Below are positions 24,911-60,745 of a stretch of 64,000 bases of DNA, piece after piece (position 1 is the stretch's first letter; the number at the start of each line of letters is the position of its first letter). The notes beneath the pieces are model-generated. The model did not search any database and was not told the DNA's origin. It saw only the letters and a program-made list of their open reading frames with translations. Both the position numbers and the translations under genes were made by a program. The DNA comes from Vibrio kanaloae (GTDB lineage Bacteria > Pseudomonadota > Gammaproteobacteria > Enterobacterales > Vibrionaceae), in NCBI RefSeq assembly GCF_024347535.1, contig NZ_AP025497.1:2852001-2916000 (forward strand). Direction: 5' to 3'.

Positions 24911-26443
24911 CTACTTAACGAGCACGTCACCTGACATTTCAGCTGGGATATCAATACCAGATAAAGAAAGCATGGTTGGTGCTAGGTCAGACAGTTTACC
25001 GCCCTCTTTAAACTCAACGTCTTTGTTACCCACGTAGATAAGTGGCACTGGTAAGTTCGTGTGCGCCGTGTGAATGCCGCCCGTTTCTGGGTTTACCATC
25101 ATTTCCGCGTTACCGTGGTCCGCAGTGATTAGCAGTTGGCCATCGGCTTCTTTGATTGCTGCTACCACTTTGCCAAGACATTCGTCTAGCGACTCTACGG
25201 CTTTAACCGCTGCATCGTAAACGCCAGTGTGGCCAACCATGTCACAGTTCGGGAAGTTACAAACGATAGCGTCGTATTTGCCGCCTTTGATCGCTGCAAC
25301 CAACTTGTCAGTTAGCTCTGGTGCGCTCATTTCTGGCTGTAGGTCGTAAGTTGCGACTTTTGGAGAAGCCACCAGTTGACGCTCTTCGCCTTCGAACTCG
25401 TCTTCTTTACCGCCGTTGAAGAAGAACGTCACGTGCGCGTATTTCTCGGTTTCAGAGATACGTAGCTGCGTTTTGCCTGCTTTTGATAGCCATTCGCCGT
25501 AAGTGTTCTCTAGAGAAGCCGGTGGGAATGCACAAAGAAGTGGGATGTCTGCTGCGTATTGAGTCAGCATCACAAAGTCGATTGCTGGGAATACGCTACG
25601 CTCAAAGCCGTCGAAATTAGGCACGAACGCACGTGTGATTTCACGCGCACGGTCGGCACGGTAGTTCATGAAGATAACCGCATCGCCATCAACGATAGCA
25701 GCAGACTCTTCGCCTTCCGCTTTGATTTCCGTTGCTTTAACAAACTCATCGTTTTCTTCACGAGCGTAAGCCGCTTCTAGGCCAGCTACGGCCGTGTCGA
25801 ATGTGAATTCCGCTTTTGCTTGAGTAAGCAGGTCGTAAGATTCTTGAACGCGATCCCAGTTGTTATCACGGTCCATTGCGTAGTAACGACCAATAAGCGA
25901 AGCCACACGGCCTTTGCCTAGTTTCGCGAATAACGCTTGGAAGCGCGCTAATGTGTTTTCTGCGCTACGTGGCGGCGTATCACGGCCGTCTAGGAATGCG
26001 TGTAGGTAGATTTTCTCTGCGCCACGTTCAGCGGCCATTTCAACCGCTGCGTAGATGTGGTCTTCATGAGAGTGAACGCCACCTGGCGACATAAGGCCCA
26101 TGATGTGCACGGCTTTCTCAGCTTTTACCGCTTTATCGATAGCGTTCGCTAGCGTTTCAGTTTGACCAAATTCGCCGTCTGCGATTGATTTCGTAATACG
26201 CGTTAAATCTTGGTATACCACGCGGCCCGCACCAATGTTGGTGTGACCCACTTCTGAGTTACCCATTTGACCATCAGGTAGGCCTACATCTAGGCCAGAA
26301 GCAGAGATTAGCGTGTTAGGTTGGTTAGCGATAAGACCGTCGATTACTGGTGTATTCGCGTTCGCGATCGCGTTGTCTTGGTTGTCTTCACGGTAACCGT
26401 AACCGTCAAGGATCACTAGAGCCATTGGCTTCTTAGCTGACAT
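24911..26443 (-). CDS. gpmI: 2,3-bisphosphoglycerate-independent phosphoglycerate mutase
   Basis: GpmI interconverts 3- and 2-phosphoglycerate in glycolysis with two Mn2+ ions and a phosphoserine intermediate. The protein has 510 residues, the family norm. The first metal site is in [12 protein letters not shown] (Asp13), the phosphorylated serine is Ser63 in [17 protein letters not shown], and the C-terminal metal site includes HGNAEMM and [12 protein letters not shown]. The frame reaches 26461, but ATG 26443 has GAGG at proper spacing and starts [17 protein letters not shown] decayed second copy of this gene lies at 60226-60745 in the same orientation. Confidence 0.97.
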
Positions 26444-26578
26444 AGGACTGACCTCGTTCAATTCAAAATAAATCGGTATAGAAACAAATTAGCGTAATTT
26501 TACTACAGTTTACAGTCAAAACTGTAGCGGAAGATCAAGAAAGGGCGCAGGTCGGGCAACTGAACATGAAAAAAATCA

Positions 26579-28132
26579 TCATTTTGTATTTGATGATCTC
26601 ATGTTTGCTTTGGTAAAGCCCCCGTATAAATCAAGTCGACGGTGGCGCAAGTTAGTCACCGATCCTTCCATATTAAGCTGCTTAAGCTTCGTTAAATCGA
26701 CATCTGCAAAAATGATCATTTCGGTATTGGCACTGGCTTCTGTCAACGTTGCATCGTGCGGGAAATAAATATCTGAGGGTGAGAACACGGCGGACTGTGC
26801 GTATTGAATATCGACATTATCAACACGAGGTAAGTTGCCAACACTGCCACCAATCGCCACATAACATTCATTCTCGATCGCTCGCGCTTGCGAACAAATA
26901 CGAACGCGCTGGTAACCATTTTTGGTATCCGTCCAAAACGGTACAAACACAATTTGTGCGCCCTGCTCCGCCATCATTCGGCCTAGCTCCGGGAACTCGC
27001 TGTCGTAACAAATGAGTATGCCCACTTTACCTGCATCCGTATCAAACACCTGTACCTTGTCGCCACCATCAATCACCCAATCTCTTTGTTCATGAGGCGT
27101 AATGTGGATTTTGTACTGAGCATTAATGCTGCCGTCACGCTGCAGTAGGTAAGCGACGTTATACAACTTACCGTCTTCTTCAATAATCGGCATACTACCG
27201 GCGATGATATTGATGTTGTAGGTCACCGCTAATTGGGAAAAGCGCGATTTGATCTCTTCTGTGAAGCCAGCGAGAAAACGGATGGCCTCAACCGAGTTTT
27301 GTTCCTTTTTCAGCCCCATCAGTGGTGCGTTAAAAAATTCAGGGAAAAGCGCGAAGTCAGCTTGGTAATTGGCCAGAGAAGAAATAAAGAACTCCGCTTG
27401 ATCGAGCAAATCTTCTAAATCGTTCATGGCACGCATTTGCCATTGCACCACGCCAATGCGGATCAGGTTTTTCTCTACATCGTGAACCGATTGAATGTCT
27501 TCCTCATAGAAAAAGTTATCCCACTCCAGCAGCGTGGCATACCCTTTGGATGCGTCGTCTTCGGGTAGATAGCCGCGCATAATTCGTTTCACATCGAAAT
27601 CATTCGCTAATTGAAACGACAAAATGGGATCATGAAGTTCACGACGTTTTACTTTGTCGATATATTCCGCCACGCTCAGTTCATTCGCATGTTCGTGGTA
27701 ATGAGGAATGCGACCACCTGCTAATATGGCTTTAAAGTTCTTGCTCCGGCACAATTCTTTACGAGCATTATACAAACGGCGGCCCAAACGAAGCCCTCGG
27801 TAATCGGGGTGTACAAAGACATCCAAACCATACATGGCATCGCCTGTCACTTGGTTCTGAATCACGTTATTTTCCGTGATGATGTCCGTATAAAGGTGAG
27901 GGAGAGAAAAGCGATTGTAATTCACTTTAATCGTCAAAGCGGCGCCGATGATCTTGCCGTTATCTTCAATACAAATTTGCCCATCAGGAAACTGATGAAT
28001 CAGATCCAGGATGGTCAAACGTGGCCACGCCCCTCCAACATCAGGAAAGACGAGATCCATTAATGCCGCGAGCTCGGTGTAATCCGATGGTTCAATGGTG
28101 CGTAAAGAGAGTTGATGCGAGTTGGTATCCAT
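26579..28132 (-). CDS. GNAT acetyltransferase-carbon-nitrogen hydrolase fusion
   Basis: The 517-residue protein joins an N-terminal GNAT domain (about 8-200, acetyl-CoA motif DVFVHPDYRGLRLGRRLYNARKEL) to a C-terminal nitrilase-superfamily amidohydrolase (about 223-510). The nitrilase catalytic triad is complete: Glu265 (FPEFF), Lys341 (QYKIHITPHE) and Cys375 (ICYDSEFPE). Such fusions are widespread in bacteria; their substrates are not settled. It is preceded by its own upstream space and is separate from gpmI by about 135 bp. Confidence 0.93.
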   Translation of the reverse strand: MDTNSHQLSLRTIEPSDYTELAALMDLVFPDVGGAWPRLTILDLIHQFPDGQICIEDNGKIIGAALTIKVNYNRFSLPHLYTDIITENNVIQNQVTGDAMYGLDVFVHPDYRGLRLGRRLYNARKELCRSKNFKAILAGGRIPHYHEHANELSVAEYIDKVKRRELHDPILSFQLANDFDVKRIMRGYLPEDDASKGYATLLEWDNFFYEEDIQSVHDVEKNLIRIGVVQWQMRAMNDLEDLLDQAEFFISSLANYQADFALFPEFFNAPLMGLKKEQNSVEAIRFLAGFTEEIKSRFSQLAVTYNINIIAGSMPIIEEDGKLYNVAYLLQRDGSINAQYKIHITPHEQRDWVIDGGDKVQVFDTDAGKVGILICYDSEFPELGRMMAEQGAQIVFVPFWTDTKNGYQRVRICSQARAIENECYVAIGGSVGNLPRVDNVDIQYAQSAVFSPSDIYFPHDATLTEASANTEMIIFADVDLTKLKQLNMEGSVTNLRHRRLDLYGGFTKANMRSSNTK

Positions 28133-28227
28133 ATCCTACTATCCATGTGTCCTTTTTAAACAGTAACAATGAGAATGCCATATTTTGACCGATACATACA
28201 CCTAGCCGAGAGTAAGATCAGCACGCC

Positions 28228-30162
28228 TTAGACTCCTACAACCTCTTTTCGTACTTGAGTGGCATTCCAAACCAAATCACCAACCCCATCAGTCGGTTTA
28301 AACCCAGCCGGCGCGTCGACGAGAAGTTGACGTATCGTTTCATGCTGTAGGTTATGACAAGCAAAATCTAAAGATTCTAGTAAAGTGTCGTATTCTTCTA
28401 TCGGCAAGAAGACTTCTTGAGCGGTCATGATCCGAGCATGAGCCGTTGGCTCCACGTTGTCTCCAATCAACAATTCTTCATAAAGTTTCTCGCCAGGTCG
28501 AAGACCAGAAAATTGAATCTCAATATCGCCATGAGGGTTCTCTTCATTCTTCACAGAAAGCCCTGAAAGGTTGATCAAGTTTTCTGCAAGATCTGTGATT
28601 TTGACCGATTCGCCCATATCAAGAACGAATACATCGCCACCTTTGCCCATTGCGCCAGCTTGAATAACTAGCTGCGCTGCTTCAGGAATGGTCATAAAGA
28701 AACGGGTAATATCACGGTGGGTAACGGTGAGTGGACCACCGGCCTTAATCTGCTTTTTAAACAAAGGAATTACCGAGCCAGAAGACCCAAGTACATTACC
28801 AAAGCGAACCATACAAAAACGTGTGCCATTCTCTTTTTGGTTCTCTTGCTCGGCCAACGCCTGCAAACCTAGTTCAGCCATACGCTTGGTTGTGCCCATA
28901 ACATTGGTTGGGCGCACCGCTTTATCTGTCGAGATAAGCACAAAAGATTCAACGCCGGCTTCGATAGCCGCTTTAGCTGTGTAGTAAGTGCCATAAACAT
29001 TGTTACGCACACCTTCTACTACATTATACTCGACAAGAGGGACATGTTTATAAGCAGCTGCATGATAAACCGTTTGAACGCCAAAAGACTGCATGGAAGT
29101 TAACAGGCGGTGTGAACGCTGAACTGAGCCCAATAACGGCACAATTTCAACATCATAACCTTGGGTTTCTTTTGCTAAACAAAGCTCACGGTCGATTTGA
29201 TACAAGCCAAACTCAGAGACTTCAAATAAAACTAGCGTTTTAGGTTGTTGCTTTAGGATTTGACGACAAAGTTCAGAACCGATTGAGCCACCGGCACCGG
29301 TCACCATCACCACTTTATTCTTGATATTGGCTTCCATTAAAGCCTGCTGAGGCTCAACCGCATCACGACCTAACAAATCTTCAATGGGAACATCAGTAAG
29401 CTCATCAATTTTCGCTTTACCTGACACAATATCAGCCATTTCTGGAACGGTTTGAATCTCAACAGGCAGTGGCGCTAACAAATTCAACACTTGCTTACGG
29501 CGTGCACGAGAGGCACTGGGTATTGCTAGCAATATCTTAGAAATGTCGTACTTCTCGATCAAACGTTCCGTTTTATCTAAATCGATAACCGGTAAACCTA
29601 AAATAACGGTATGAGTTAATGTTCTATCTTCATCAATAAACGCGCGTACTCGATAGCTCCCAGACGCCCTTAACGCTAAAGCCAATTGTCGGCCACCAGA
29701 TCCCGCACCGTAAATTAATACTTCTTCGGGTGAATCTTTAGACGGTGAAGTCGTCGCAATAAGGTTACGAACCACTAAACGAGAACCACCACATAACAAA
29801 GCTAAATAAGCACCATAAATAATAGGTACTGTGCGAGGGATCGGCTCTTGTAAGTAATAAGCAAATATCGCCAAAGATATTGCCGAAAATATTGCACCAG
29901 CCATCACTACAAACAGCGCTTGAAAGGTAAGGTAGCGAAGAACGGCGCGATAAAGTCCTATTTTAGTAAAAGCAATGACCGTCGCTATTACTGTTAAGCC
30001 TGTCAGTAATAAGTTGTCACCATTATTCAAGAAATGAAATTCACCTAACCTTGTCCACAACGCAATATGCAGAGCAAAGATAATAAGTAAAGTATCGATA
30101 GAAACACTGATAACTCGCTTTTTAAAACGAGAAAGGTGCCATATGAAATGTAGACGTTGCAT
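28228..30162 (-). CDS. membrane UDP-GlcNAc 4,6-dehydratase, WbpM/CapD/FlaA1 large type
   Basis: The 644-residue protein has four N-terminal membrane helices (about 14-130), a first Rossmann segment (IYGAGSGGRQLALALR, about 150) and the catalytic SDR domain from about 280 (VTGAGGSIGSELCRQ). The Ser is in LISTDKAVRPTNVMGTTKR; the usual Tyr of the SDR YxxxK is Met, the SMK triad known in WbpM-type enzymes. It converts UDP-GlcNAc to the 4-keto-6-deoxy sugar. The product may feed the DegT aminotransferase at 32752. It is last in the minus-strand polysaccharide gene block, with 310 bp before it, so it may have its own promoter. Confidence 0.92.
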   Translation of the reverse strand: MQRLHFIWHLSRFKKRVISVSIDTLLIIFALHIALWTRLGEFHFLNNGDNLLLTGLTVIATVIAFTKIGLYRAVLRYLTFQALFVVMAGAIFSAISLAIFAYYLQEPIPRTVPIIYGAYLALLCGGSRLVVRNLIATTSPSKDSPEEVLIYGAGSGGRQLALALRASGSYRVRAFIDEDRTLTHTVILGLPVIDLDKTERLIEKYDISKILLAIPSASRARRKQVLNLLAPLPVEIQTVPEMADIVSGKAKIDELTDVPIEDLLGRDAVEPQQALMEANIKNKVVMVTGAGGSIGSELCRQILKQQPKTLVLFEVSEFGLYQIDRELCLAKETQGYDVEIVPLLGSVQRSHRLLTSMQSFGVQTVYHAAAYKHVPLVEYNVVEGVRNNVYGTYYTAKAAIEAGVESFVLISTDKAVRPTNVMGTTKRMAELGLQALAEQENQKENGTRFCMVRFGNVLGSSGSVIPLFKKQIKAGGPLTVTHRDITRFFMTIPEAAQLVIQAGAMGKGGDVFVLDMGESVKITDLAENLINLSGLSVKNEENPHGDIEIQFSGLRPGEKLYEELLIGDNVEPTAHARIMTAQEVFLPIEEYDTLLESLDFACHNLQHETIRQLLVDAPAGFKPTDGVGDLVWNATQVRKEVVGV

Positions 30163-30472
30163 AGAAATATTCTTATTTATTAGTATTTAATAAACCACAA
30201 AGACTGCATGAGTGGGATGTATTGAACATGTTTGAAGTTCACAAGAAGAACGTGTGAACGACAGCCTGAATATTTAATTCAAGCTTCAATTTTGATGGAT
30301 ATAAACACCCCGACAATTCGACAACTTTCACCTATTGGGGAATTTATGACCTATCAAAGAAAGGATCTTAAACTAACTGGCATCTCATATATTGGAAACT
30401 CAAGCAAATAAGCCAATAATGCTGAGACCAAAGATACTGAAAGAAAAGTCCTTTTTAATAACGTGTACTATT
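30163..30472. other. 310-bp intergenic region in the polysaccharide block
   Basis: This lies between the UDP-glucuronate epimerase gene and the dehydratase gene. It is AT-rich and has no ORF of note. TTTTACT-TGC-AGTAAAA (30471-30487) overlaps the upstream stop codon. A promoter for the dehydratase is likely but not resolved. Confidence 0.5.
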
Positions 30473-31477
30473 TTACTTGCAGTAAAACTCGCGATACCAC
30501 TGGATAAACTCAGCAACGCCTTCTTTTACCGTTACTTTAGGTGTGTAACCTGTTGCGGCAAACAAGTCCTGTGTATCGGCATAAGTTTGGTAAACGTCAC
30601 CAGGCTGCATCTCGCGGAAGTTTTTCTTCGCTTCAATACCGAGTTCGTCTTCAATCGCCTTTACAAAATCCATCAAGTTGATTGGTGAACCGTGACCAAT
30701 GTTATACACCGCATAAGGCGCAGAACTGGTTGCTGGAGAACCCGCTTCGACCGTCCAATCGTTTTCACGCGTTGGCATCACATCTGCGATACGCACAACA
30801 CCTTCAACAATGTCTTTTACATGAGTAAAGTCACGCCACATATCGCCATTGTTGTTGATATCAATGGTAGCGCCATCGAGGATCTTCTTAGTGAAGATAA
30901 ATGGTGCCATATCTGGGCGGCCCCACGAACCATACACAGTAAAGAAGCGCAAGCCTGTGGTTGGAATGTCGTATAGGTGAGAGTAACTGTGCGCCATCAA
31001 CTCATTCGACTTCTTGGTCGCCGCATACAGTGAAACTGGGTGATCAACCGAATCTGACGTTGCAAACGGTGTTTTCGCATTCAACCCGTAAACCGAGCTT
31101 GAAGAGGCATACACCAAGTGCTTCACTTTATTGTGACGACACCCTTCAAGAATGTTCAAATGACCGACTAAGTTCGAATCGGCGTAGGCGTGTGGGTTTT
31201 CAATTGAATAGCGAACCCCCGCTTGTGCAGCCAAGTGAATCACTTGATCAAACTGCTCGGTTTCAAACAAGCTAGCTACACCATCGCGATCGGCAATGTC
31301 TAACTGAACCAGTTTAAAATTGGCATGTTGAATACGGGCTAGGCGCGCTTCTTTCAAAGCGACATCGTAGTAGTCATTCAGGTTATCGACACCGACAACC
31401 GTGTGGCCTTTCGCCGTTAGCTGCTCTGCTACTGCACTGCCGATAAAACCCGCCGCGCCCGTTACCAAATACTTCAT
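30473..31477 (-). CDS. UDP-glucuronate 4-epimerase (SDR family)
   Basis: The 334-residue extended SDR enzyme opens with the NAD motif TGAAGFIGSAVAEQL and VDNLNDYYDVALKEARL, the latter typical of UDP-glucuronate 4-epimerases (WbnF/LspL type). The catalytic Ser/Tyr/Lys lie in ASSSSVYG and YAATKKSNELMAHSY, then LRFFTVYGSWGRPDMA. It should convert UDP-GlcA to UDP-GalA, using the product of the adjacent ugd gene, whose stop-to-start spacing is short. Confidence 0.9.
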   Translation of the reverse strand: MKYLVTGAAGFIGSAVAEQLTAKGHTVVGVDNLNDYYDVALKEARLARIQHANFKLVQLDIADRDGVASLFETEQFDQVIHLAAQAGVRYSIENPHAYADSNLVGHLNILEGCRHNKVKHLVYASSSSVYGLNAKTPFATSDSVDHPVSLYAATKKSNELMAHSYSHLYDIPTTGLRFFTVYGSWGRPDMAPFIFTKKILDGATIDINNNGDMWRDFTHVKDIVEGVVRIADVMPTRENDWTVEAGSPATSSAPYAVYNIGHGSPINLMDFVKAIEDELGIEAKKNFREMQPGDVYQTYADTQDLFAATGYTPKVTVKEGVAEFIQWYREFYCK

Positions 31478-31488
31478 TTTTTTGTTCC

Positions 31489-32655
31489 TTAATCTGAACC
31501 GAATAGATCGCGTGTGTAGACTTTGTCTTTTACATCCGCCAGTTCTTGAGCCATGCGGTTTGAGACAATCACGTCACAGCTTGATTTAAATTGGTCAAAA
31601 TCGGTGAGCACTAATGAACGGAAGAACTCTTTTTCTTTAAGTTCAGGTTCAAACACTACAACCTCAATACCTTTTGCCTTCAAGCGCTTCATAATGCCTT
31701 GAATACTGGACGCGCGAAAGTTATCTGAACCGGACTTCATGACTAAGCGATAAATACCCACACGTTTCGGGTTGCGCTTAATAATAGAGTCAGCAATAAA
31801 ATCTTTACGTGTGGTATTCGAATCGACAATCGCACCAATAATATTGTTTGGTACATCAGAGTAGTTGGCACGCAACTGCTTAGTATCTTTTGGTAAACAG
31901 TAACCGCCGTAACCAAACGAAGGGTTATTATAGTGTGAACCAATGCGAGGGTCTAAACTTACACCATCGATGATTTGACGCGTATCTAGCCCGTGTGACT
32001 CGGCGTAGGTGTCTAGCTCGTTAAAGTAAGCAACGCGCAGCGCTAGATAAGTATTCGAGAATAGCTTAACGGCTTCCGCTTCTGTTGAATCAGTGTATAG
32101 GATTTCAACGTCTTTTTTAACCGCACCTTCTAACAACAAGTTCGCAAAAACTTGAGCACGTTCAGAGCGCTCACCGACCACAATACGTGATGGGTGTAGG
32201 TTGTCGTATAACGCTTTACCTTCACGTAAGAACTCTGGCGAGAACATCAGGTTGTCACACTCTAATTCTTGTTTAATGCGCGCGGTATAACCGACAGGCA
32301 CGGTTGATTTGATCACCATTACCGCGTTTGGGGTAATCGCCATCACATCTTTAATCACCGCTTCAACTGATGAGGTGTTGAAGTAGTTGGTTTCAACATC
32401 GTAATCGGTCGGTGTTGCGATAATCACGAATTCCGCGTCTTGATACGCCGCTTTTTTATCTAAAGTTGCGGTGAAGTTTAACGGCTTATTTACCAAGAAA
32501 TCTTCAATTTCAGCATCGACGATAGGAGATACTCTGTCATTAAGTAATCTCACTTTCTCTTCGATAATATCGACCGCGATAACGTCATGATGCTGTGATA
32601 ACAACATCGCATTTGATAAGCCTACATAGCCGGTACCGGCAATTGCAATTTTCAT
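31489..32655 (-). CDS. ugd: UDP-glucose 6-dehydrogenase
   Basis: Ugd oxidises UDP-glucose to UDP-glucuronate with two NAD+. The protein starts [19 protein letters not shown] (ATG 32655, giving 388 residues; the longer frame to 32742 adds 29 unrelated residues). The active-site cysteine is in [15 protein letters not shown], and the substrate-binding region includes [24 protein letters not shown]. It belongs to the shorter ugd class found in LPS and capsule loci. It sits between the aminotransferase gene and the UDP-glucuronate epimerase gene. Confidence 0.95.
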
Positions 32656-32751
32656 TTTATTTTTCTTCGCTGACGTTGTAATTTGTATAATTAAGAATTT
32701 GATATAAAAATAATTAGGGAAAGCTCTAACCTTGCCTATCATAAGATTTAA

Positions 32752-33927
32752 TTAGATTTGAGCTTCGAGTAAAACAGCACGAATAACTTCAGCCGTCTTC
32801 TCAATCTCACCCTGTAATAAAGTTGGGTGCACTAAAAACATTAAGCTGGTTTCACCTAACTCAACGGCATTCTTTAACGGCGTTTCAGGCCTGTAACTTG
32901 TGCCATCAAATGCTTTTTCTAGATAAACCTCAGAACAACTGCCTTGATAGGCAGGTACACCGCGTTCAACAATCGCTTCAACAATTTTATCGCGAGTCCA
33001 ACCTGGTTTTAGGTGCTCGGGGCGAATAAACACATAATGTTTATATTCAGCATGTTCGATGTAATCTGGAACTTCCACACTTCGAACAATTGAAAGTTCA
33101 GCAATCGCCGCTTCAATAATAGCAGCATTAGACTGACGCTTTTGGGTCCATTCAGCCATGCGTTGGATTTGGATACGACCAATAACCGCTTGCATTTCTG
33201 TCATGCGCCAGTTGGTACCAAAGCGTTCATGAAGCCAACGGAAGCCCGGTGGGTGCTCGCGGTTGTAAATAGCATCAAAGCTTTTACCATGATCCTTATA
33301 AGACCACATAAACGACCATAGATCTTTGTTGTTGGTGGTTACCATGCCGCCTTCGCCGCCGGTGGTCATGATCTTGTCTTGGCAGAAAGACCAAGCACCA
33401 ATATCACCAATCGTACCGACACTGCGACCTTTGTATTTAGCACCATGCGCCTGAGCACAATCTTCAATAACCTTGAAACCATGCTTTTCAGAGAGCGCCA
33501 TAATTGCATCCATCTCGGCAGGCATACCCGCAAGGTGGACCACGATCACCGCTTTTGTTTTTGGTGTAAGTACCGCTTGTATTGATTCAGCGGTAATGTT
33601 TTGACTATTCAAATCCACATCAGCGAAAACAGGGATTGCTCCCGCCGTCACTATCGAGGAAGCTGACGCCAAAAAAGTCCGCGATGTAGTAATAACTTCA
33701 TCACCTTGACTTACCCCTAGAGCTTTCAATGCAATATCTAACGCTAGCGTTCCGTTACCTAGCGCCACTGCATATTCACAGCCAACCCAAGCCGCAAACT
33801 CTTTTTCGAATTCACGCCCTTCTTGGCCTGTCCAATAGTTAACGCGATTAGAAAGTAAAACTTGCTTAACAGCATTAGCCTCCTCATGAGTAAAGCACGG
33901 CCAAGGTGACACTTTAGTATTTAACAT
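32752..33927 (-). CDS. DegT/DnrJ/EryC1/StrS-family sugar aminotransferase
   Basis: This PLP enzyme of 391 residues aminates a keto sugar nucleotide. The PLP lysine is Lys185 in AWSFCQDKIMTTGGEGGM, with EDCAQAHGA for the cofactor ring and GNGTLALDIALKALGV for the phosphate. The most likely substrate is the 4-keto-6-deoxy product of the WbpM-type dehydratase at 28228, giving a UDP-4-amino-4,6-dideoxy sugar as PglE does. The start overlaps the 3' end of the sugar-transferase gene by 14 bp. No PglD-type acetyltransferase gene is visible in the block. Confidence 0.9.
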   Translation of the reverse strand: MLNTKVSPWPCFTHEEANAVKQVLLSNRVNYWTGQEGREFEKEFAAWVGCEYAVALGNGTLALDIALKALGVSQGDEVITTSRTFLASASSIVTAGAIPVFADVDLNSQNITAESIQAVLTPKTKAVIVVHLAGMPAEMDAIMALSEKHGFKVIEDCAQAHGAKYKGRSVGTIGDIGAWSFCQDKIMTTGGEGGMVTTNNKDLWSFMWSYKDHGKSFDAIYNREHPPGFRWLHERFGTNWRMTEMQAVIGRIQIQRMAEWTQKRQSNAAIIEAAIAELSIVRSVEVPDYIEHAEYKHYVFIRPEHLKPGWTRDKIVEAIVERGVPAYQGSCSEVYLEKAFDGTSYRPETPLKNAVELGETSLMFLVHPTLLQGEIEKTAEVIRAVLLEAQI

Positions 33928-46345: not shown

Positions 46346-46391
46346 AGAACTAGAAAGGCGGTATATAACCATCAACGAACCAAGGAGCAGC

Positions 46392-49645: not shown

Positions 49646-49674
49646 AGCAAACAGCAAACAAGCAGAAAAGAGTA

Positions 49675-49856: not shown

Positions 49857-49863
49857 TTTGATG

Positions 49864-52035: not shown

Positions 52036-52156
52036 CAGATTGCTACTTCCTAAACTAGTACTTTAAGAGAATGTAAATACGATTTACGTACCCTTTTCTC
52101 TTATGTGATTCTATTAATGGCGATGTGTAAGCTAACTCGATTTCTTTTAGCTTTAA

Positions 52157-52597: not shown

Positions 52598-52728
52598 AAC
52601 TGACTTCTAACTATAATGTGCTTATTAAACTGAATACTCTTGCAAACCGAATGCGCTTACAAACTAAAGGCATTTACAAACCAAAGGCACTTGTACTTTT
52701 CAGCATCATTGACGTTTAAACATAAAAA

Positions 52729-52757
52729 ATCAGGTTACACACCAAATGTAACCTGAT
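52729..52757 (-). terminator. intercistronic intrinsic terminator between wza and wzb
   Basis: ATCAGGTTACA / TGTAACCTGAT with a 7-nt loop is followed on the minus strand by TTTTTTATG. It follows the wza stop codon and precedes wzb, as the hairpin after wbpA does in the other ops operon. Confidence 0.88.
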
Positions 52758-52790
52758 GATTAAACAGGGCTTTTTACCAACCAGGGCATA

Positions 52791-53924
52791 CTACCAATTA
52801 CGAACGCGCAACATACCTTCGGTTAGGTCGTTGAAGCCCGAAATGGTTGGTACAAGCTGACCAATCACACGGTTCCAACGGCTGATTGGCGCAGCGGTAA
52901 CATAAACAATATCGTAAGGTTTTAAGTCAAACTCGGTGCCTATGACCAGTGCCGATGCATCTTCCATATTAAGTTGGTAGATATCCGCCATGCGTTCTGA
53001 TTTGTCATCCGAAGTTCGAATCACAAATACACCAGTGGCATCGGCGGTCAGTTGGTTGATCCCACCGACGGTGCTAAGGGCTTCCGTTAGGCTCATGCCG
53101 ACACGGTCAATCTTCAACAGTTGAGGATCATTCACTTCGCCCATCACGAATACTTTCTGATTGTCATTACGCGGCACGTGAACAATATCACCCGCTTGCA
53201 GTAAACGGTTTTGTGTTAAATCACCACGTTGCATTAAGCCATAAAGTGAGAGGCTTTCTTCTACGCCATTACGCGTTAATGACACATTACGCCAGTCGGC
53301 ATTTTCAGATAAACCGCCAGAACGGTTCACGGCATCTAGTAAGGTCAAAGGGATATTGGTGATGGCTTGTTGGCCAGGCTTTTCTATCTCGCCTGTGACA
53401 TATGCTTTTTTAGAGCGAAACGCCGCCACGTTGACATCGACTTGAGGGCTCTCGATATACTTTGCTAAACGAGCCGCAATGTCAGCACGAACTTCGCGCA
53501 CGGTTTTGCCGACAACGTCAACCGTCCCAATGTACGGGTAGAAGATGGTGCCATCAGCATGAACCCAGTTGCCCGCTTCCGTACTACTACGGTAAGAACC
53601 AGCAGGAATGGTCAGTTCAGGGTGATCCCAAATAGTGATGTTTAAGATATCACCAACCCCTACTTGATATTCATACTTTGCAATATCAACATCTAATGTC
53701 GGGTTAGCCTGGGAAACCGATAACGGTTCATTTCGGTAACTCGATACTGACTGAGCCGTCAATGGGTAAAGGTTAACCACATCAGAGATATCAGATTCTT
53801 GCTGTTCCTCTGAAGGCTGAATCACATTCTTGTTGCCAGTAGAAAGGTGAGTTCCTGGAGTCGTACACCCTGCCAATAATGCAGGAAGGAGCGCTAAAAG
53901 GAGACGATTTTTATTAATCTTCAT
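52791..53924 (-). CDS. wza: outer-membrane polysaccharide export lipoprotein Wza
   Basis: Wza forms the octameric outer-membrane channel for capsule export. The 377-residue protein has a lipoprotein signal with lipobox LLAGC (Cys20), the Poly_export domain (YQVGVGDILNITIWDHPELTI; GTIFYPYIGTVDVVGKTVREVRADIAARLAKYI) and two SLBB segments (KKAYVTGEIEKPGQQ; QKVFVMGEVNDPQLL), and ends in the helix that lines the outer-membrane pore. The frame extends to a TTG at 53933; ATG 53924 is chosen. An ops element lies about 155 bp upstream. Confidence 0.95.
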   Translation of the reverse strand: MKINKNRLLLALLPALLAGCTTPGTHLSTGNKNVIQPSEEQQESDISDVVNLYPLTAQSVSSYRNEPLSVSQANPTLDVDIAKYEYQVGVGDILNITIWDHPELTIPAGSYRSSTEAGNWVHADGTIFYPYIGTVDVVGKTVREVRADIAARLAKYIESPQVDVNVAAFRSKKAYVTGEIEKPGQQAITNIPLTLLDAVNRSGGLSENADWRNVSLTRNGVEESLSLYGLMQRGDLTQNRLLQAGDIVHVPRNDNQKVFVMGEVNDPQLLKIDRVGMSLTEALSTVGGINQLTADATGVFVIRTSDDKSERMADIYQLNMEDASALVIGTEFDLKPYDIVYVTAAPISRWNRVIGQLVPTISGFNDLTEGMLRVRNW

Positions 53925-54076
53925 GTTAACCAAGTCATAGAAACGGAATGTGTTTTGACGCCCCTAAGGACATCCAAAGAATAGAAGGCAAATGATTTTA
54001 TCAGTTACACAGCGGTGAATCGGAGAGATGCGAAGAATTAACACGATCTTCCTCCCATTTATAGTCAGAAAATGAG

Positions 54077-54088
54077 AACGCTACCGCC
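54077..54088 (-). promoter_or_regulatory. ops element (RfaH loading site) of the wza operon
   Basis: The minus strand reads GGCGGTAGCGTT, matching ops except the last base, preceded by AAAG. RfaH bound here would carry RNA polymerase through the wza-wzb terminator. Confidence 0.85.
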
Positions 54089-54135
54089 CTTTGATATTTC
54101 GCGACATCACACTGCGTCATGTATTTTCCCAAGGT

Positions 54136-54199
54136 ATTTCAATTTGCCACCAAGGGATTTCAATTTGTTACCAAAGCATTCAAACCTGCCCACCAAGGC
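54136..54199. repeat. three 21-22-bp tandem repeats
   Basis: Units start at 54136, 54157 and 54178 and share ATTTCAATTTG and ACCAAGG cores. They lie upstream of the ops element in the direction of wza transcription and could be part of the promoter. Confidence 0.65.
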
Positions 54200-54432
54200 A
54201 TTTAAAATGGTATGGAATTGCCAATTTAAACATAAAAAAAAAAGCAGGTACAAACGCTCAGTTTAATTCGTAAGCATTATCCACAATCTGTGCTTAATAT
54301 CAACCTAGTTGAATGGTTTAGCACTAGGAAGAGCAGATGATAAATACCAGTAAACGAGAGACGAGTAAGTGAAAAAAAGCCAAAGAGCGAACACTTTTTG
54401 TGCCCGCCCTTCGCTTCTTCTCTTACTCAAAC

Positions 54433-56550
54433 TTATTTAACGGCTTCTAAATATTTTAGATAAGCATTACGCAAGCGTTGTCGGTTTTCTTGGTAATAGC
54501 TTGCACCGATTCGGTTACGGTTGAAATACTGTCTTTCAATATTGTGCTGTAACCCAGTATCGACACCTAAGCCTTCACCTAAGTTGTTACTACTCTCACC
54601 CACTCGAGTTTGAAGCGCATAAACAAACTGGTCGATACCACGCAACTGAACGTAGTTAGGGCTCATATCACGCCATGGTGTTAAAGGGATCGCGATAGAA
54701 AGAGTGACAAAGTCTTCGGCTTCACTATTCCCTACCGCTTTTGTGGTCTGGTATGAAGCGTCAACCCTTACATCTCCCAACCAATGACTGCTGGTCACTC
54801 GAACCCCTTCGTCACCTTTCCAAAATTGGCCAGCTTGCACTTTACCTTGCCAATTCCAATCGGGCCTTGCGTAGGTGTAATGGCCAATGATTGGCGTCGC
54901 ATCTGCGATAACGTCTCCTTTCGCATCAAATTTATCTTGAGCAGAGAAGTTGGCGTATTCAGAACCAAGAATATGTCGCCCGCTATTGCTGGCATACTGA
55001 GTTTCGTTCAAGAAGCCCAAGAAGTTGCCGTACACTTGGCCGAATGAGAATTGAGTGGTGAGGTTATAAGGCAATTGAAATGCTTGATGGAAAAGAACCC
55101 TATCAACTTCATTTTCAAAGGCATCATCGGCCCAGATTCTGCCTTCTTCAAAGTCATCACTATCCGCCAATGGCATTAAGTGTCTAACATCCAACGCGGC
55201 GCCCTTCCACAGAGAAGTATAAAGGTTGGTGGACAGTGCTAATGAGTAATCAAATACACCGTATTCTGTCGCAGTATTGTGATACAAAGCAGGAGAAACG
55301 ATAACTTGTGTACGTCCAAAACCGGAACGAGCAGCCTCTTTATCAAACTTCGCCTTGGCATATCTCTTTTTCACATCGGAAGTACGAACAATCAGGTTTC
55401 TGCAAGGCTCACCCGTTTTCACAAATTCTCGATAACATGGGGCACTGGTGATCACTTCCATCATTGGAATGTCATTAACCAAATTAAACAGGCGAATATT
55501 CTGCTGCTGATAATTTTTAACCCCAAGGTCTTGAAGCATGCCTTCTCCCACGTAGGAAGAGATGATCCCCAAAGCGACACCAACGCCATCAACTTGGTTA
55601 CGATTGTAACGTCTGTTTTCCAGAGCGACATTTAAACCAAGATCATCCGCAGAAATTCTCACATTAAGAAAGCCTTCATCAACTAGGGCTTTCTTAAGTT
55701 GCACAACGCCAGAAAATTCATGGTGTGCTTGCTCTATTGAGATCTTGTCTTCCAGAGTTAACTCATTGACTCTGCGAGATTCAGAGAAGCCCATTAAGGG
55801 AGCAGATGCCGCCACAGACCAAATATCGATATCGGCAGTGCCACTGGTGTAAAACTGGTATTGAAAAGAGAGTTGCGTATCGAGCGGCAAGTAGTTTTCT
55901 GGTGTAAACACCTTTAAACCAGCGTTAAATTGAGCAGAGTCGTGCTCAGCAATCAACTGAACAAAATCCAATGGCTGATACTCTAAACTGGCGAAAGGCC
56001 CATTCAACACGCCATGGCTAATATCCGATTTACCGAAACCCGCACTAAACCGAGCCGGCACAAAGTCAGGCACATAATCAGCGACCGCATAATAAGTTTT
56101 AAAATTATTTGCCGCCCCACCTAAATCTTGAGCACCGAAGGCAACATCGAACCCCGTCCAATCTTTAATAAAAGGGAGTTGGTATTTAAAGGAAGCCGAT
56201 AAATCACGAATGCCGTTACCACAGTTAGGATCGTAGTTCGGTACATTCGGGTAAAGGTGACAATCATAAGTTTTGGTGACAATTCTACCCGCTGCCTCCA
56301 ACCCATCGAATAAGCCAACGCTAAACAATATGTTGTCTAAGTCGCTGGTTTTTCCTCGGTATGGTACACCTTGGCCATAGAGGTAAGAGATATCTCCAGT
56401 GTCCATTACCTGAGCATTGGGAACGATAATCGCACCGGTATAACTTTGAGACGACATCAGGTTATCGACAGCATAAACATTAGAAGAGATGGCTAATGCG
56501 CTAATAGATGCCACGAGAGATACGTTTTTAGAATGACTGAGTATTTTCAT
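54433..56550 (-). CDS. YjbH-domain outer-membrane protein (WbfB-like)
   Basis: The 705-residue exported protein has a signal peptide (MKILSHSKNVSLVASISALAISSNVYA) and the YjbH opening SQSYTGAIIVPNAQVMDTGDISYLYGQ, followed by GLFDGLEAAGRI and many alternating-residue strands, consistent with a beta-barrel pair. YjbH proteins accompany capsule and exopolysaccharide operons; WbfB of Vibrio capsule loci is the nearest named relative I recall. It probably acts in outer-membrane passage or modification of the polymer. Its stop lies next to a dispersed-repeat hairpin. Confidence 0.87.
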   Translation of the reverse strand: MKILSHSKNVSLVASISALAISSNVYAVDNLMSSQSYTGAIIVPNAQVMDTGDISYLYGQGVPYRGKTSDLDNILFSVGLFDGLEAAGRIVTKTYDCHLYPNVPNYDPNCGNGIRDLSASFKYQLPFIKDWTGFDVAFGAQDLGGAANNFKTYYAVADYVPDFVPARFSAGFGKSDISHGVLNGPFASLEYQPLDFVQLIAEHDSAQFNAGLKVFTPENYLPLDTQLSFQYQFYTSGTADIDIWSVAASAPLMGFSESRRVNELTLEDKISIEQAHHEFSGVVQLKKALVDEGFLNVRISADDLGLNVALENRRYNRNQVDGVGVALGIISSYVGEGMLQDLGVKNYQQQNIRLFNLVNDIPMMEVITSAPCYREFVKTGEPCRNLIVRTSDVKKRYAKAKFDKEAARSGFGRTQVIVSPALYHNTATEYGVFDYSLALSTNLYTSLWKGAALDVRHLMPLADSDDFEEGRIWADDAFENEVDRVLFHQAFQLPYNLTTQFSFGQVYGNFLGFLNETQYASNSGRHILGSEYANFSAQDKFDAKGDVIADATPIIGHYTYARPDWNWQGKVQAGQFWKGDEGVRVTSSHWLGDVRVDASYQTTKAVGNSEAEDFVTLSIAIPLTPWRDMSPNYVQLRGIDQFVYALQTRVGESSNNLGEGLGVDTGLQHNIERQYFNRNRIGASYYQENRQRLRNAYLKYLEAVK

Positions 56551-56644
56551 TAGGATGCAATAGGTTATAACCGTATTTGACAGTGACTATATTGGATAGT
56601 AACTATGTTTAATAATGACAGCGTTTAATAATGACAGCGTGTAA

Positions 56645-56668
56645 AAAAGGCACCGAGTGGTGCCTTTT
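56645..56668 (-). terminator. intrinsic terminator after the lipoprotein gene
   Basis: AAAAGGCACC / GGTGCCTTTT with a GAGT loop continues on the minus strand with extra T. It lies just after the lipoprotein stop and before the YjbH gene, so the latter needs read-through or its own promoter. Confidence 0.85.
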
Positions 56669-56684
56669 ATCATTGGTGCTTAAA

Positions 56685-57590
56685 TTAGCCGCCAGTACCA
56701 CCGCCGTTACCGCCACCGCCAGTACCGCCAGTGCCGCCAGTACCACCAGTACCGCCAGTAGGTGGGTTAGTACCTTCATCTGGATTTGGAACAGGCTCAG
56801 CTTCTTTTTCCGGTGGAAGAACTACAGTTTCAGTTGGATCAGCAACTACTTTTTCAACTAACGTTGGGTTTTCAGTTAGATCCAAGAAAATTGTCTTACC
56901 ACTCGGTGCTTTAGGGTAGTCTGGGTAGTCATTAAAAACTTTTGTCGCAATAGCCTCTGCTGCCGCTGACAAATCAGTTGCTGATGCATTCGGGCTAACC
57001 ACTAGCACATCTGACAATACCGCGTTAGTCGCTAAAACTTGGCTCTTTTCAGTCGCTGGAAGACCATTAATAATTTCTTCAGTACGACGCAGGAAGTCAG
57101 CAACATTCTTAGCACGGCCATTGTTTATTAAGTAGCCCAAGCCAAGATCGTTAAGAATCTGTTCACCTACAGTGTCATTGTAAGGTTGGCCATCTAGCTC
57201 TTTCTCAATCAGTGTTGAGATTGGAGAAGATGTCACAAGGTCATCGAGATTAGCTAAGCCTTTAGGGAACTTGTAGCTCACCTTACTCATGTCTTTGCCG
57301 TTAGATACATCTTTGGCACCTGGCGTTGCGTTATAGGAAAACGAACAAGTTTCAGGCTTATTAAAAACGGTAAGCTCAGTAACTTCAGAAACACCATAAA
57401 AGTTAGTTGCTTCTAAAATGCCCGTTGTGCCATCGTCACAACTGAATGTTCCTTTCATACCCATAACTGCAGGGTCGAATGCCATAATATTACGATATGG
57501 TTCAACAGGAGGAGTGCTATTGTCATTATCGCTACCACAGCCCCCTAAAATTGCACCAACGACTGATAACGCTAAAATTTTATATTTCAC
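56685..57590 (-). CDS. lipoprotein with Gly/Thr-rich repeat tail
   Basis: The 301-residue protein has a lipoprotein signal (MKYKILALSVVGAILGGC, Cys18), then a linker, a domain with Cys pairs (TFSCDDGTTGILEATNFYG; PETCSFSYNATPG) and helical segments (ISTLIEKELDGQPYNDTVGEQILNDLGLGYLI). The C-terminus is Pro/Glu-rich and then GGTGGTGGTGGTGGGGNGGG, coded by short trinucleotide repeats. It sits in a gene set with a beta-barrel protein and YjbH, so a surface or periplasmic role in polysaccharide export or attachment is plausible. I do not recognise the family. Confidence 0.75.
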   Translation of the reverse strand: MKYKILALSVVGAILGGCGSDNDNSTPPVEPYRNIMAFDPAVMGMKGTFSCDDGTTGILEATNFYGVSEVTELTVFNKPETCSFSYNATPGAKDVSNGKDMSKVSYKFPKGLANLDDLVTSSPISTLIEKELDGQPYNDTVGEQILNDLGLGYLINNGRAKNVADFLRRTEEIINGLPATEKSQVLATNAVLSDVLVVSPNASATDLSAAAEAIATKVFNDYPDYPKAPSGKTIFLDLTENPTLVEKVVADPTETVVLPPEKEAEPVPNPDEGTNPPTGGTGGTGGTGGTGGGGNGGGTGG

Positions 57591-57609
57591 AATTGATCCC
57601 TACAAATAA

Positions 57610-58152
57610 TTAAAAGTAATGAGACAAAGCAACATTAAATGAATCGATATTTACACCACCAACATCCTGGTATACTTGGTATTCTAGGCCAATTTTCATT
57701 GCTGATGTCATGGAGTATTCAGTACCAAAAGCAATAGTTGGAGCAACGCCTGAATCATCAGACTCAACACCCTTACCATTTGCATTCCAATCATAAACAG
57801 CAAAGCCGCCTTTGGCATACACAGCCAAACTATCGTTTACATTGCCTGAGGCTTTTAGTACGACATCAAAACTGCTCGCGTCATAGCTGCCACCGACAAT
57901 GTCTTTAAGATCATATTCACCAAGGTAGCTGTAACCACCTTCTATGGCTAATGAATCGACAATCTGATAACCGACAAACAAACCGTAAGAGGTGTCTGAA
58001 TCATCAATAGCCGTTCTGCTTTCTACTAAAGGGGCAAACTTATCGGCAGAGACACTACCAACTTTGGCGCCTACGTATAAATTCTCAGCTCCCATGGCTG
58101 TTGCTGATAGCAACAACAAAGGTGAAACTTTAACTAACCACTGCATTTTCAT
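57610..58152 (-). CDS. small outer-membrane beta-barrel protein (OmpA-like/Opacity type)
   Basis: The 180-residue protein has a signal peptide (MKMQWLVKVSPLLLLSATAMGA) and alternating beta strands: NLYVGAKVGSVSADKF, TSYGLFVGYQIVDSLAIEGGYSYLGEYDL, SLAVYAKGGFAVYDW, TIAFGTEYSMTSAMKIGLEYQVYQ, ending in FNVALSHYF with a terminal Phe for BAM recognition. This is the eight-stranded porin-like fold. ATG 58152 is chosen over 58176 because it begins the signal peptide properly. It lies 19 bp before the lipoprotein gene, which is probably co-transcribed. Confidence 0.85.
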   Translation of the reverse strand: MKMQWLVKVSPLLLLSATAMGAENLYVGAKVGSVSADKFAPLVESRTAIDDSDTSYGLFVGYQIVDSLAIEGGYSYLGEYDLKDIVGGSYDASSFDVVLKASGNVNDSLAVYAKGGFAVYDWNANGKGVESDDSGVAPTIAFGTEYSMTSAMKIGLEYQVYQDVGGVNIDSFNVALSHYF

Positions 58153-58913
58153 ATAATTATATCTTCCATATTTCAAACTGAATTGATGCCGATTTTCCTA
58201 GCAAATCTGCGTGGTAGTCTAATCAGTTCTTGTACCACGACCCAAAAAATCAGGCAGTCATACGTACTTTCCGACCCCAAACAACTGACGTATTTAAGCA
58301 ACATCGGTGATATCACCACTCAATGTTGCACTCTTCATTAGCGCTAGGTTTGTCTATGTTTAATTGAGCTTAAAGAACTTAAGAGTCACTTGCTTAGTAC
58401 ACCATAAGCCAATCACAAGTACTCCTTTTTGCTCTCAACTCCGAGAGTGGAACTCTTAGATCACAGACGTAAGAAGAAAGCCTCTTTGACTGCGATAGCC
58501 AAACCACCTGCTTAGGCCTTCCTTACCTACCGACTGACTTGCTGATAGGTTTTGCAAAAAGGAATAACTCAGCTTAAACAACTGATTGAACACATGATAG
58601 ATAATAACAACTATCAAGTAAATGTATAATTAATAAACGCACCACAACGGTTCAAAAACTTCATAAAGCTAACGTTATGAGCCGAATAAGGGCCTCGTTC
58701 AACTCTATCGATTTATATTCAACTCTAGAACGATATATAAGGCAACACCCGATCGCCAGAGCCTTTGCCTAGTACCGTTTGAATGATGTTCAGATGTCTG
58801 TCTGGCATTGTATGCGTTAAGGATAAGCAACTTTAATTCGCCAAACGTTAGGTATCGGTATTTGCTTGGAGTTACGGTAGTCATTCGTTACGCAGTCTTG
58901 GCGTAAGAGGGAA
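58153..58913. other. 760-bp intergenic region without recognised genes
   Basis: This region lies between the wzz-like gene (its terminator) and the barrel-protein gene. I find no ORF, RNA gene or ops element. It should hold the promoter of the barrel-lipoprotein pair. Its length suggests a long leader or lost genes. Confidence 0.5.
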
Positions 58914-58944
58914 TAAAAAATGGCTAGTGTATAAACACTAGCCA
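58914..58944 (-). terminator. intrinsic terminator of the wzz-like gene
   Basis: TGGCTAGTGT / ACACTAGCCA with an ATAA loop is followed on the minus strand by TTTTTT. Confidence 0.92.
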
Positions 58945-58954: not shown

Positions 58955-60079
58955 TTAATCTTCTTTTCTAAATACAAATCTTATAAACACGATTACAACA
59001 CCCAACACTCCACCAAGCAATGTGCCGAGAACGACAATAAGAGACCGTTTAGGTTTATCTCGAGTGATCGGTTGCTCTACGCTTTCTATGTAACGAAACG
59101 TCTGAAACTCAACACTACGGTCAACATCAAGATGATCCAACATATCTAGCTTTGCATTTATTTGTTGAATGCGAGGCTCTATAACACTTAGATTTTTAAC
59201 CGATTCTAAAGCCTTAATTTTTGCATCTAAACCCTTAGCACCCAAATCAATACTAAACAGTTCCTTTTCATTACCTGTTTGGATTGGTCTATCGACACCT
59301 GCAGACTTAGCAATTTTGAAAGCATATTTTGCTCGCTCAGTTTCGACTAATAATTGATTGCTAGCCTGGCTTTCTAAGATTCTTTTTTGTTGAATCAACT
59401 CATTCCTTTTACCACTAACAACTGCACTCAAGTTATTGAATGCGTCTTGATGAACCTTCGACTCAGTCGCCAAAATGTAAGCGGTTAACAAGTTAAAGCT
59501 GCCTTCTTTAGTCATTGTTTGAAAATTAACAATGTATGGTGAATTATGATCCTTTTTATCAACTTTAGAAGCTGAGACTCTATTAAACCATTGAGCATAT
59601 AAGGCTCTAACCTCGTCAACGCTCATATCAGACTCGCCAACCACCAAAGAGTTTTTAAACTCTTGGAATTCGATACTATTATCTAAAAAAGCTCTCTTAT
59701 TATTAGTTGAATTAAAGGCATTCACAAATCGTTGGAACAACACCGTAGAGTCAATCAATCTATCTAGTTCTGTGCTAACAAGAACTGTCCCATCTTCTTG
59801 ATATATATTAAAAACAGGTTGAAATTGCTTCACCTGCTGCTGATATTCAGCTAAGTTTTGAGGCTGAGCTTTTGTAATTTTAGCATTAGAAGACCACCAC
59901 TCTTGAGCTGACAAGGCAAAGACAATACTACTAGCAGTAAATAAAGTAGTTACCAAAATTATTATTAGCTTACCGTCCCAAAGCGCTTTAAAAAGGTCTC
60001 GCAGATCAAGTTCATCATTTGCGCTATACATTGGCGGGTTTTCTGGGGAGTAAGGCTGTGGTTGGTAATGCTGCTTCAC
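58955..60079 (-). CDS. wzz: Wzz-type chain-length determinant protein
   Basis: The 374-residue inner-membrane protein has the Wzz domain: cytoplasmic N-terminus (DELDLRDLFKALWDGKLI), helix 1 (IIILVTTLFTASSIVFAL, about 38-56), a large periplasmic helical part, and the C-terminal proline-rich helix (PKRSLIVVLGTLLGGVLGVVIVFIRFVF). It sets the modal length of O-antigen or capsule chains. It has no kinase domain, unlike Wzc. It is nearest to wecA and may serve the LPS O-antigen rather than the capsule. Confidence 0.92.
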   Translation of the reverse strand: MKQHYQPQPYSPENPPMYSANDELDLRDLFKALWDGKLIIILVTTLFTASSIVFALSAQEWWSSNAKITKAQPQNLAEYQQQVKQFQPVFNIYQEDGTVLVSTELDRLIDSTVLFQRFVNAFNSTNNKRAFLDNSIEFQEFKNSLVVGESDMSVDEVRALYAQWFNRVSASKVDKKDHNSPYIVNFQTMTKEGSFNLLTAYILATESKVHQDAFNNLSAVVSGKRNELIQQKRILESQASNQLLVETERAKYAFKIAKSAGVDRPIQTGNEKELFSIDLGAKGLDAKIKALESVKNLSVIEPRIQQINAKLDMLDHLDVDRSVEFQTFRYIESVEQPITRDKPKRSLIVVLGTLLGGVLGVVIVFIRFVFRKED

Positions 60080-60225
60080 TATAAGTCTCTCAAAATATCT
60101 GAATTAATAACTACAAATGCTATCACACCGTATGGTGTTAGTATCGTGTAACTTGTTAGCTTTCTGAAAGCGCTCTTCAGACAACTAGCAGCGCACTATA
60201 ACCTAGTTTTATTTTAGTTCAATCG
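60080..60225. other. short spacer before the gpmI remnant
   Basis: This 146-bp spacer contains the likely upstream region of the wzz-like gene. No gene is seen. Confidence 0.5.
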
Positions 60226-60745
60226 GCATCATATTTGCCGCCTTTGATTGCAGTAACAAGTTTTTCAGTTAGCTCTGGTGCTCTCATTTCTGGCTGTGGG
60301 TCGTAATGGAGAAGCAACTGCTGTATCGAATATAAACTCTGATTGTGCTTATGTATGCACGCCGAAAGATTCTTGAACGCTGTCCAAGTTGTTATCACGG
60401 CCCACTACGTAGTATAACCAATAAGAGAAGCTACACGGCCTTTACCTAGCTTCGCGAATAGCCCTTTTCCTGCGCTACGTGGTAGAGTGTCACGACCGTA
60501 TAGGAATGCATGTAGGTAGATATTCTCTACGCCACTCTCATCTGCTATTTCAACAGCTGCGTAGATGTGACCTTCATGAGATTGAACACCATCTAGAGGT
60601 ATAAGCCCATGATGTGAAAAGTTTTGTCAATAGTGTTTCGGTTTAGCCGAGCTCGCCATATGAGCTTGACTTAGTAATTCGAGTGAAATCCTAATATACT
60701 AAAAGGCCAGCACCAACATTGGTATGACCCACTTCTGAGTTAGGT
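60226..60745 (-). pseudogene. gpmI: decayed second copy of gpmI
   Basis: Long segments match the intact gpmI at 24911-26443 in the same orientation. ATTTGCCGCCTTTGAT and TTAGCTCTGGTG (60235-60285) match 25275-25330; TTGTTATCACGG through TACGTAGTATAA and ACACGGCC (60390-60445) match 25860-25915; GCTGCGTAGATGTG with CTTCATGAGA (60555-60580) matches 26045-26075; ATTGGTATGACCCACTTCTGAGTTA (60718-60742) matches 26235-26260. About 470 bp between the first two blocks is missing, and many indels break the frame. A faint trace may reach 60845. It lacks the first ATG and the 3' end, so it makes no enzyme. Confidence 0.9.

Follow-up and report, generated by a model that had tools for sequence, protein, structure and literature searches.

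Intact and decayed copies of gpmI at the two ends of a capsule island in Vibrio kanaloae suggest that two forms of a site for polysaccharide exchange were joined

Results

In a stretch of 64,000 nucleotides from Vibrio kanaloae (contig NZ_AP025497.1, positions 2,852,001 to 2,916,000 of the forward strand; hereafter the window), an intact and a truncated copy of the phosphoglycerate mutase gene gpmI sit at the two ends of a capsule/polysaccharide island. The intact gpmI (24911..26443, minus strand) matches NCBIfam NF003897 with 1008 bits against a curated cut-off of 862. The island (26579..58176), which was recognised by library scans of its proteins, is followed by a gene for the chain-length regulator Wzz, the truncated gpmI and a gene for a wecA-type initiating transferase.

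The truncated copy was found by BLASTN of gpmI against the window and later aligned piecewise at base level. It consists of a 5′ piece (60313..60742, minus strand) that matches 25784-26261 (71.5% identity gapped, 79.5% ungapped, E 1.7e-75) and a 3′ piece (60226..60306, minus strand) that matches 25269-25349 (86.4%, E 1e-21). Both pieces run the same way as the intact gene 34 kb away, and 412 of 511 ungapped sites are identical (342/430 plus 70/81), which is far from chance. A preliminary description of the window, in which blocks of 60226-60745 were said to match gpmI in the same orientation with indels, was therefore right in this respect. The deletion that it placed in the copy is also present, at 434 bp (25350-25783, between the two pieces) rather than about 470 bp, and the larger piece holds 48 bp of further gaps. 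What is left covers the inner part of gpmI, residues about 59-192 and 370-399; the sequence corresponding to the 3′ end (24911-25268) and the 5′ end (26262-26443) is gone or eroded as well, and there are stops in all three frames. Among self-matches with E up to 1e-4, the gpmI/remnant pair is the longest in the window, the runner-up being 86 bp. A protein search of the 4.65-Mb, two-contig genome found no gpmI beyond the intact gene and the remnant pieces. We found no near match to 60100-61030 in plasmids, no Rfam match across 20000-64000 and no tRNA in the window.

The surroundings of gpmI were compared among relatives, cited here by genome number. gpmI is present in all 227 genus genomes searched. 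wecA was sought in 45 distinct relatives, 14 of which have a wecA relative at most 350 bp from a complete gpmI; the wecA product is 78-91% identical in amino acids in G024, G185, G076, G201 and G224, and 61-63% identical in G130, G116, G018, G163, G134, G145, G205, G146 and G153. In 13 of the 14, a protein search (E 1e-3) gave no second gpmI, the exception being G205 with a 3′ piece elsewhere, so that the single gpmI next to wecA that had been anticipated for strains without the island is indeed found.

The 35 relatives that were fetched and mapped include two types of site. In the N type (25/35), MATE, an efflux transporter gene, is followed by groES without wzz between them. In the W type (8/35: G011, G018, G024, G109, G121, G130, G185 and G201), wzz lies between MATE and groES. 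The order wecA/gpmI/MATE/wzz/groES, which represents the empty site, is found in G185, G201, G130 and G018, the wecA relatives of G130 and G018 being only 62-63% alike. G024 also has the W order with wza-wzb-wzc between gpmI and MATE, that is, a different insertion point in the same site. The MATE-groES intergenic region of V. kanaloae (23187..23448) is of the N type and serves as the join signature of the groES side: the match to its MATE side is 56-58 bp long in wzz-free genomes, including G009, G031 and G150, versus 37-38 bp in the eight W-type genomes. G172 and G190 match this region on the groES side only. As the N type is found in G009, G031 and G150, which are more distant (85-86% gpmI), N is probably the older state.

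V. kanaloae belongs to a third class. The order wecA/wzz/island/gpmI/MATE/groES is found in eight genomes, our own and G027, G006, G106, G139, G151, G178 and G199, and the groES side is of the N type in all eight. Since their wecA-wzz side is of the W type, these genomes look like W/N hybrids.

The former W order can still be read at the wecA-wzz end of V. kanaloae. The wecA-type gene (61031..62092, plus strand; Pfam Glycos_transf_4), the anchor of the O-antigen side, is up to 92% identical in amino acids to its relatives in G024 and G201. Its leader (60952..61030) is a relic of a wecA-gpmI intergenic region with about 81% identity to G185 and G151; the strictly intergenic match to G185 is 81.3%, E 7e-17. 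The W-side anchor wzz (58955..60079, minus strand; Pfam Wzz) is about 80% identical in nucleotides to that of G185, and next to it lies a relic of the wzz-MATE intergenic region (60080..60227; strictly intergenic match 82.6%, E 4e-39). As a whole, 58915-60227 aligns to 8571-9882 of G185, whose MATE begins near 9890, and G024 is alike. At 60227, the former MATE start, gpmI sequence sets in abruptly. On the other side, the match to W-type G185 extends about 40 bp beyond the wzz stop codon and breaks off at 58915, just after a hairpin-like inverted repeat in the sequence (58922..58943). In the W-type genomes, similarity to the groES leader sets in about 80 bp behind the wzz stop of G185; the corresponding distance is 86 bp for G130 and 123 bp for G201. 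These limits indicate that island-gpmI-MATE replaces about 40-85 bp between the wzz and groES of a W chromosome. Judged from the alignments, the joint is just behind the wzz terminator and not in gpmI.

Similar traces are found in the other hybrids. The wecA-wzz interval of G151 holds the gpmI upstream region and the first gpmI bases, followed by MATE pieces, in the W order. We take the intervals of V. kanaloae and G151 to be a collapsed wecA-gpmI-MATE-wzz block, which means that both chromosomes would once have held gpmI-MATE twice. The intervals of the six other hybrids are 360-542 bp long. When strictly intergenic wecA-wzz sequence was searched, with 400 shuffled intervals as the control, the wzz end matched the wzz-MATE intergenic region in 8/8 hybrids (E 2e-15 or better) and the wecA end matched the wecA-gpmI region in 8/8 (E 3e-25 to 1.6e-4). 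At the wecA end, E was 3e-25 in G178, 3e-8 to 7e-7 in G106, G139, G006 and G027, and 1.6e-4 in G199, the weakest; none of the 400 shuffled intervals reached E 1e-4. The main MATE piece of G151 resembles the MATE gene of V. chagasii (G106) more closely than it does the intact MATE in the same genome, with 20 versus 42 third-position differences of 60. Compared with 36 MATE genes, its differences by codon position are 7, 5 and 2 private, too few for a test, and 6, 3 and 40 shared. The closeness to G106 is an independent sign of mixed ancestry.

We then asked what the differences between remnant and intact gpmI say about its origin. At codon positions 1, 2 and 3 they number 22, 20 and 57 (non-uniform, p 2e-6). 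Private and shared differences were counted with 33 of 42 aligned intact sequences (the V. chagasii genome is in twice), the more distant G009, G172, G190, G106, G123, chagasii, profundi, SWAT3 and HI00D65 being left out. The differences private to the remnant are uniform over the codon positions (19, 19 and 18), as in neutral decay, and those shared with intact genes of the clade fall on third positions (3, 1 and 39), as between working genes of different species. The mean private differences of an intact clade gene are 0.15, 0.15 and 1.82. In 2000 simulated runs of neutral decay from our own copy, compared against 32 sequences (the same set minus our own gene), the shared differences had a mean of 15 and a maximum of 27, versus 43 observed. 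Uniform private differences, together with this third-position excess, suggest that the remnant was probably a working gpmI of another lineage, which decayed neutrally afterwards.

The private decay, 56 of 511 sites or about 0.12 per site after correction, also gives an indication of age. The synonymous divergence (dS) between V. kanaloae and its sister G027 has a mean of about 0.13 (0.05-0.23; 14 genes outside wzz and wecA), i.e. about 0.07 per lineage. On a neutral clock, the loss of function would date back at least roughly to the separation of the two genomes, and the scar is probably no younger than that split.

Comparison with G027 also shows a later exchange. From groEL to the OmpA-like gene, the two genomes have blocks of 92-97% nucleotide identity in common, which cover about 23 of the 32 kb of the island, while wzz and wecA are only 71-72% identical. 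Nothing in G027 matches the middle of the island (about 30.4-32.8 and 33.9-40.3 kb). A sliding alignment against G027 places the breakpoint at 58658..58858: 80-column windows are 88-100% identical on the island side and 54-85% on the wzz side, with unalignable sequence between. The difference between the island blocks and wzz/wecA indicates that the wecA-wzz end was exchanged in one of the two after the split, separately from the shared island parts.

At least two gpmI matches are found in 16 of the 227 genus genomes, none of which has a second complete gene. Second matches in G007, G008, G166, G198 and G219 were dropped as distant (34%) and elsewhere; extra matches in G039, G059, G097, G117, G118, G158 and G169 were adjacent pieces of one gene, and one further weak match of 30% in G118 was dropped as a second copy. 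G009, G199 and G205 have partial copies of the gpmI 3′ end only. In G205, which has an intact gpmI beside a wecA relative, a 275-bp 3′ piece (93% to the intact gpmI of G205 itself, 96% to that of G018) lies 16.5 kb away, and the segment from gpmI to this piece (6928-18722 of L257) encodes a tyrosine integrase, a second integrase-domain protein, HipA and CcdB. The gpmI 3′ end may thus be usable as an integration site as well. The regions retrieved for G165, G031 and G024 also encode relatives of the G205 integrase. The 3′ piece of G199 is 0.9 kb from gpmI, and G009 repeats 164 bp of the gpmI 3′ end plus its downstream sequence (97%) at a distance of about 29 kb, with polysaccharide genes in between. 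The 3′-end repeats of G205, G199 and G009 lie on the MATE side, and their mechanism need not equal that of the scar in V. kanaloae.

From gpmI to the remnant, the gene order is GNAT-nitrilase, polysaccharide genes, a phage-like block, glpT/glpQ-like genes, wzc-wzb-wza, yjbH, an OmpA-like gene and wzz. The enzyme genes of the island include, besides GNAT-nitrilase, a PseB/FnlA-like dehydratase, sugar dehydrogenases, an aminotransferase, glycosyltransferases and TviB/TviC-like genes. Protein scans thus agree with the preliminary description on the contents between the copies (polysaccharide, phage-like, glpTQ and GNAT-nitrilase genes). Every island protein that was scanned was run against at least one library, and none matched an integrase family.

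The phage-like genes proper take up 43508-46727. The wider block 43092-46727 encodes a phage O-like replication protein, an amidase and small proteins. It is found, intact or broken, in the capsule islands of 7/7 hybrid relatives, and G072, G193, G011 and G174 have all or part of it, which makes it an unusual conserved component of capsule loci. The GNAT-nitrilase gene (26579-28132) has a relative in G134 that is 100% identical (rounded) over residues 1-508 of 517 and lies on the other side of wecA (73029-74552), which suggests recent transfer. The epimerase and ugd genes (30473-32742), which are in the island here, are found near wecA relatives in G201, G116 and G163 (94-97% amino acid identity), so that modules appear to move between the two clusters. 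An 86-bp direct repeat (45980-46065 and 46260-46345) is 95% identical. A short element at 24787-24821 recurs at 46778-46812, with weaker matches near 45944 and 6787.

On the groES side, the intact copy of the duplicated MATE gene (23449..24786, plus strand) was identified by family match and by the gpmI-MATE-groES order in relatives. groES (22896..23330, minus strand, open reading frame as listed; family match) has its GroES profile beginning at residue 49. groEL (hsp60; 21198..22844, minus strand; NCBIfam GroEL) gives one match in the genome, the sole copy found; its distance is about 2 kb to gpmI and 3.7 kb to the island. The named relatives in the gpmI scan include V. tasmaniensis, V. splendidus, V. 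chagasii and V. profundi; we take their clade, and that of this genome, to be Splendidus.

Discussion

Here we have described an intact and a decayed gpmI at the two ends of a capsule island. It is likely that they mark the ends of a join between two chromosomes that carried different versions of this site for polysaccharide exchange. The W parent would have carried O-antigen genes-wecA-gpmI-MATE-wzz-groES, and the N parent a capsule island followed by gpmI-MATE-groES without wzz. We propose that a fragment entered, presumably by natural transformation, and recombined homologously at one end and illegitimately at the other, directly behind the wzz terminator, and that the product was wecA-gpmI-MATE-wzz-island-gpmI-MATE-groES. 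As one gpmI suffices, the gpmI-MATE pair on the wecA side would have lost function and been whittled down, to two gpmI pieces in V. kanaloae and to the gpmI start and MATE pieces in G151. A single founding event, with the same doubled state in the six other hybrids, would account for the class as a whole. This explanation builds on direct observations: the scar, the gene order in V. kanaloae and G151, the mixed flanks, the uniform decay and the surplus of differences that other species have as well. The newcomer would be either the island or the O-antigen side, and the donor species of the decayed copy is left unplaced by the approximately unbiased (AU) test.

The preliminary description had proposed that a donor segment with its own gpmI was integrated by homologous recombination and left a decaying spare copy as a mark of island gain. 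Two copies, apparently of different lineages, do seem to have been brought together and one has decayed; the duplicated unit, however, would be gpmI with MATE. Homology is retained in our proposal at one end, with the joint behind wzz instead of in gpmI. The decayed copy does lie in the W-type place beside wecA and wzz, but this wecA-wzz end was exchanged separately.

Several observations weigh against the join. Remains of the gene bodies are absent in 6/8 hybrid-order genomes (BLASTN E 1e-3), which have short edges only. These edges could be wecA and wzz leaders that may have been kept for function, and the shared history of the six other hybrids is to that extent conjectural. W-type G011 and G121 hold island genes beside gpmI with no match to this wecA, which shows that an island can be gained without leaving such a scar. 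The species is represented by one strain. In the tree, the nearest branch of the remnant has 38% support, and the AU test rejects none of five constrained placements (with our own copy, own plus G027, G151, G185 or G201); the best likelihood, by 2.6 units, is that of the G151 constraint, which also does better than the unconstrained search. Sisterhood with our own copy has an AU p of 0.455, which would suit a duplication of gpmI in place and its subsequent decay, without any foreign DNA. A similar codon pattern would be expected from an old duplicate of this kind that had long stayed functional. Such a history requires a long-lived second working copy, of which there is none in the genus survey; a duplicate that simply decayed disagrees with the uneven codon positions and with the shared differences, which exceed all simulated runs, and the flanks match two different site types. 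We therefore regard in-place duplication as improbable.

A closer competitor, nested in the proposed join, is that an O-antigen cassette of wecA-gpmI-MATE-wzz entered an N-type island chromosome, the decayed copy being the donor's. V. kanaloae and G027 are alike at groEL, MATE, gpmI and most of the island and unlike at wzz and wecA, and the N type is found in the more distant relatives, both of which fit this idea. G027, however, also has wecA beside wzz with short edges, so that the founding join looks older than the wecA-wzz exchange, and the unmatched island middle means that the O-antigen end was not the sole exchanged part. No data here order the two sides at the founding event, and we give entry of the cassette a little less than an even chance. 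Insertion by an integrase into the 3′ end of gpmI, with a partial att-like copy left behind, is what G205 looks like, with its integrase/HipA/CcdB segment between intact gpmI and 3′ piece. The V. kanaloae remnant is inner gpmI without the 3′ end and lies on the wecA side, and the island proteins scanned include no integrase family; this route is more improbable still than duplication in place. Chance or shared-domain similarity, whose probability we consider negligible, is refuted by the E value of the remnant, the gene order as in relatives and the lack of a comparable self-match in the window.

The join between two site versions has parallels in other systems. In the Neisseria meningitidis cps island (PMC5349592), Region D holds an intact galE1 and Region D′ a truncated galE2; the remnant is related to the single gene of capsule-null strains, and illegitimate recombination into a resident galE was proposed. 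There, too, the capsule island is flanked by an intact sugar gene on one side and by its truncated remnant on the other. That system differs in that its repeats are inverted and flip the cassette, whereas the copies here are direct, gpmI comes with MATE, and the remnant is in pieces and nearly gone; the organism and the capsule genes differ as well. With galE1/galE2 as a close precedent, the scar is of an ordinary kind, although well documented here. Natural transformation of Streptococcus pneumoniae yields merodiploids (PMC3784515) and can likewise leave a duplicated stretch with a spare copy, but the duplications there span about 100-900 kb and require repeated sequences in the recipient.

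In Vibrio, PMC7829505, PMC2987987 and PMC1847822 place a capsule/O-antigen locus between gmhD and rjg or glpX and mention recombination and multicopy genes. Both there and here, surface-polysaccharide clusters lie between conserved border genes, whereas the site here is bordered by groES-MATE-gpmI and wecA. No gmhD, rjg or glpX was identified among the scanned proteins of the window, and the far end of the O-antigen cluster is outside it. A 2010 study by Wildschutte, by its title, reportedly concerns lateral transfer of the wbe region (O-antigen genes) among V. splendidus isolates. A literature search on gpmI or phosphoglycerate mutase with Vibrio capsule or K-antigen turned up nothing on this site.

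groEL (hsp60) is a typing marker for these vibrios, and we take the marker to be the groEL described here because the gene is single copy in the genome. The placement of two populations in an hsp60 tree is called a recombination artefact in PMC6246604. A tentative and rather doubtful extension of our proposal is that gpmI-MATE beside groEL is a general gate for surface-polysaccharide exchange in Splendidus-clade vibrios, in which hybrid joins double the gate, direct repeats let the island pop out and decay of one copy locks it in. If so, pop-out would also regenerate wecA/gpmI/MATE/groES chromosomes, and the nearby groEL could be dragged along.

The arrangement would represent footprints of the swapping of surface-polysaccharide clusters in marine vibrios. 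The readable remnant separates inherited differences from decay, and the series of relatives locates the joint. The value of the finding lies in this series and in how near the site is to groEL, the hsp60 marker by which these populations are sorted.

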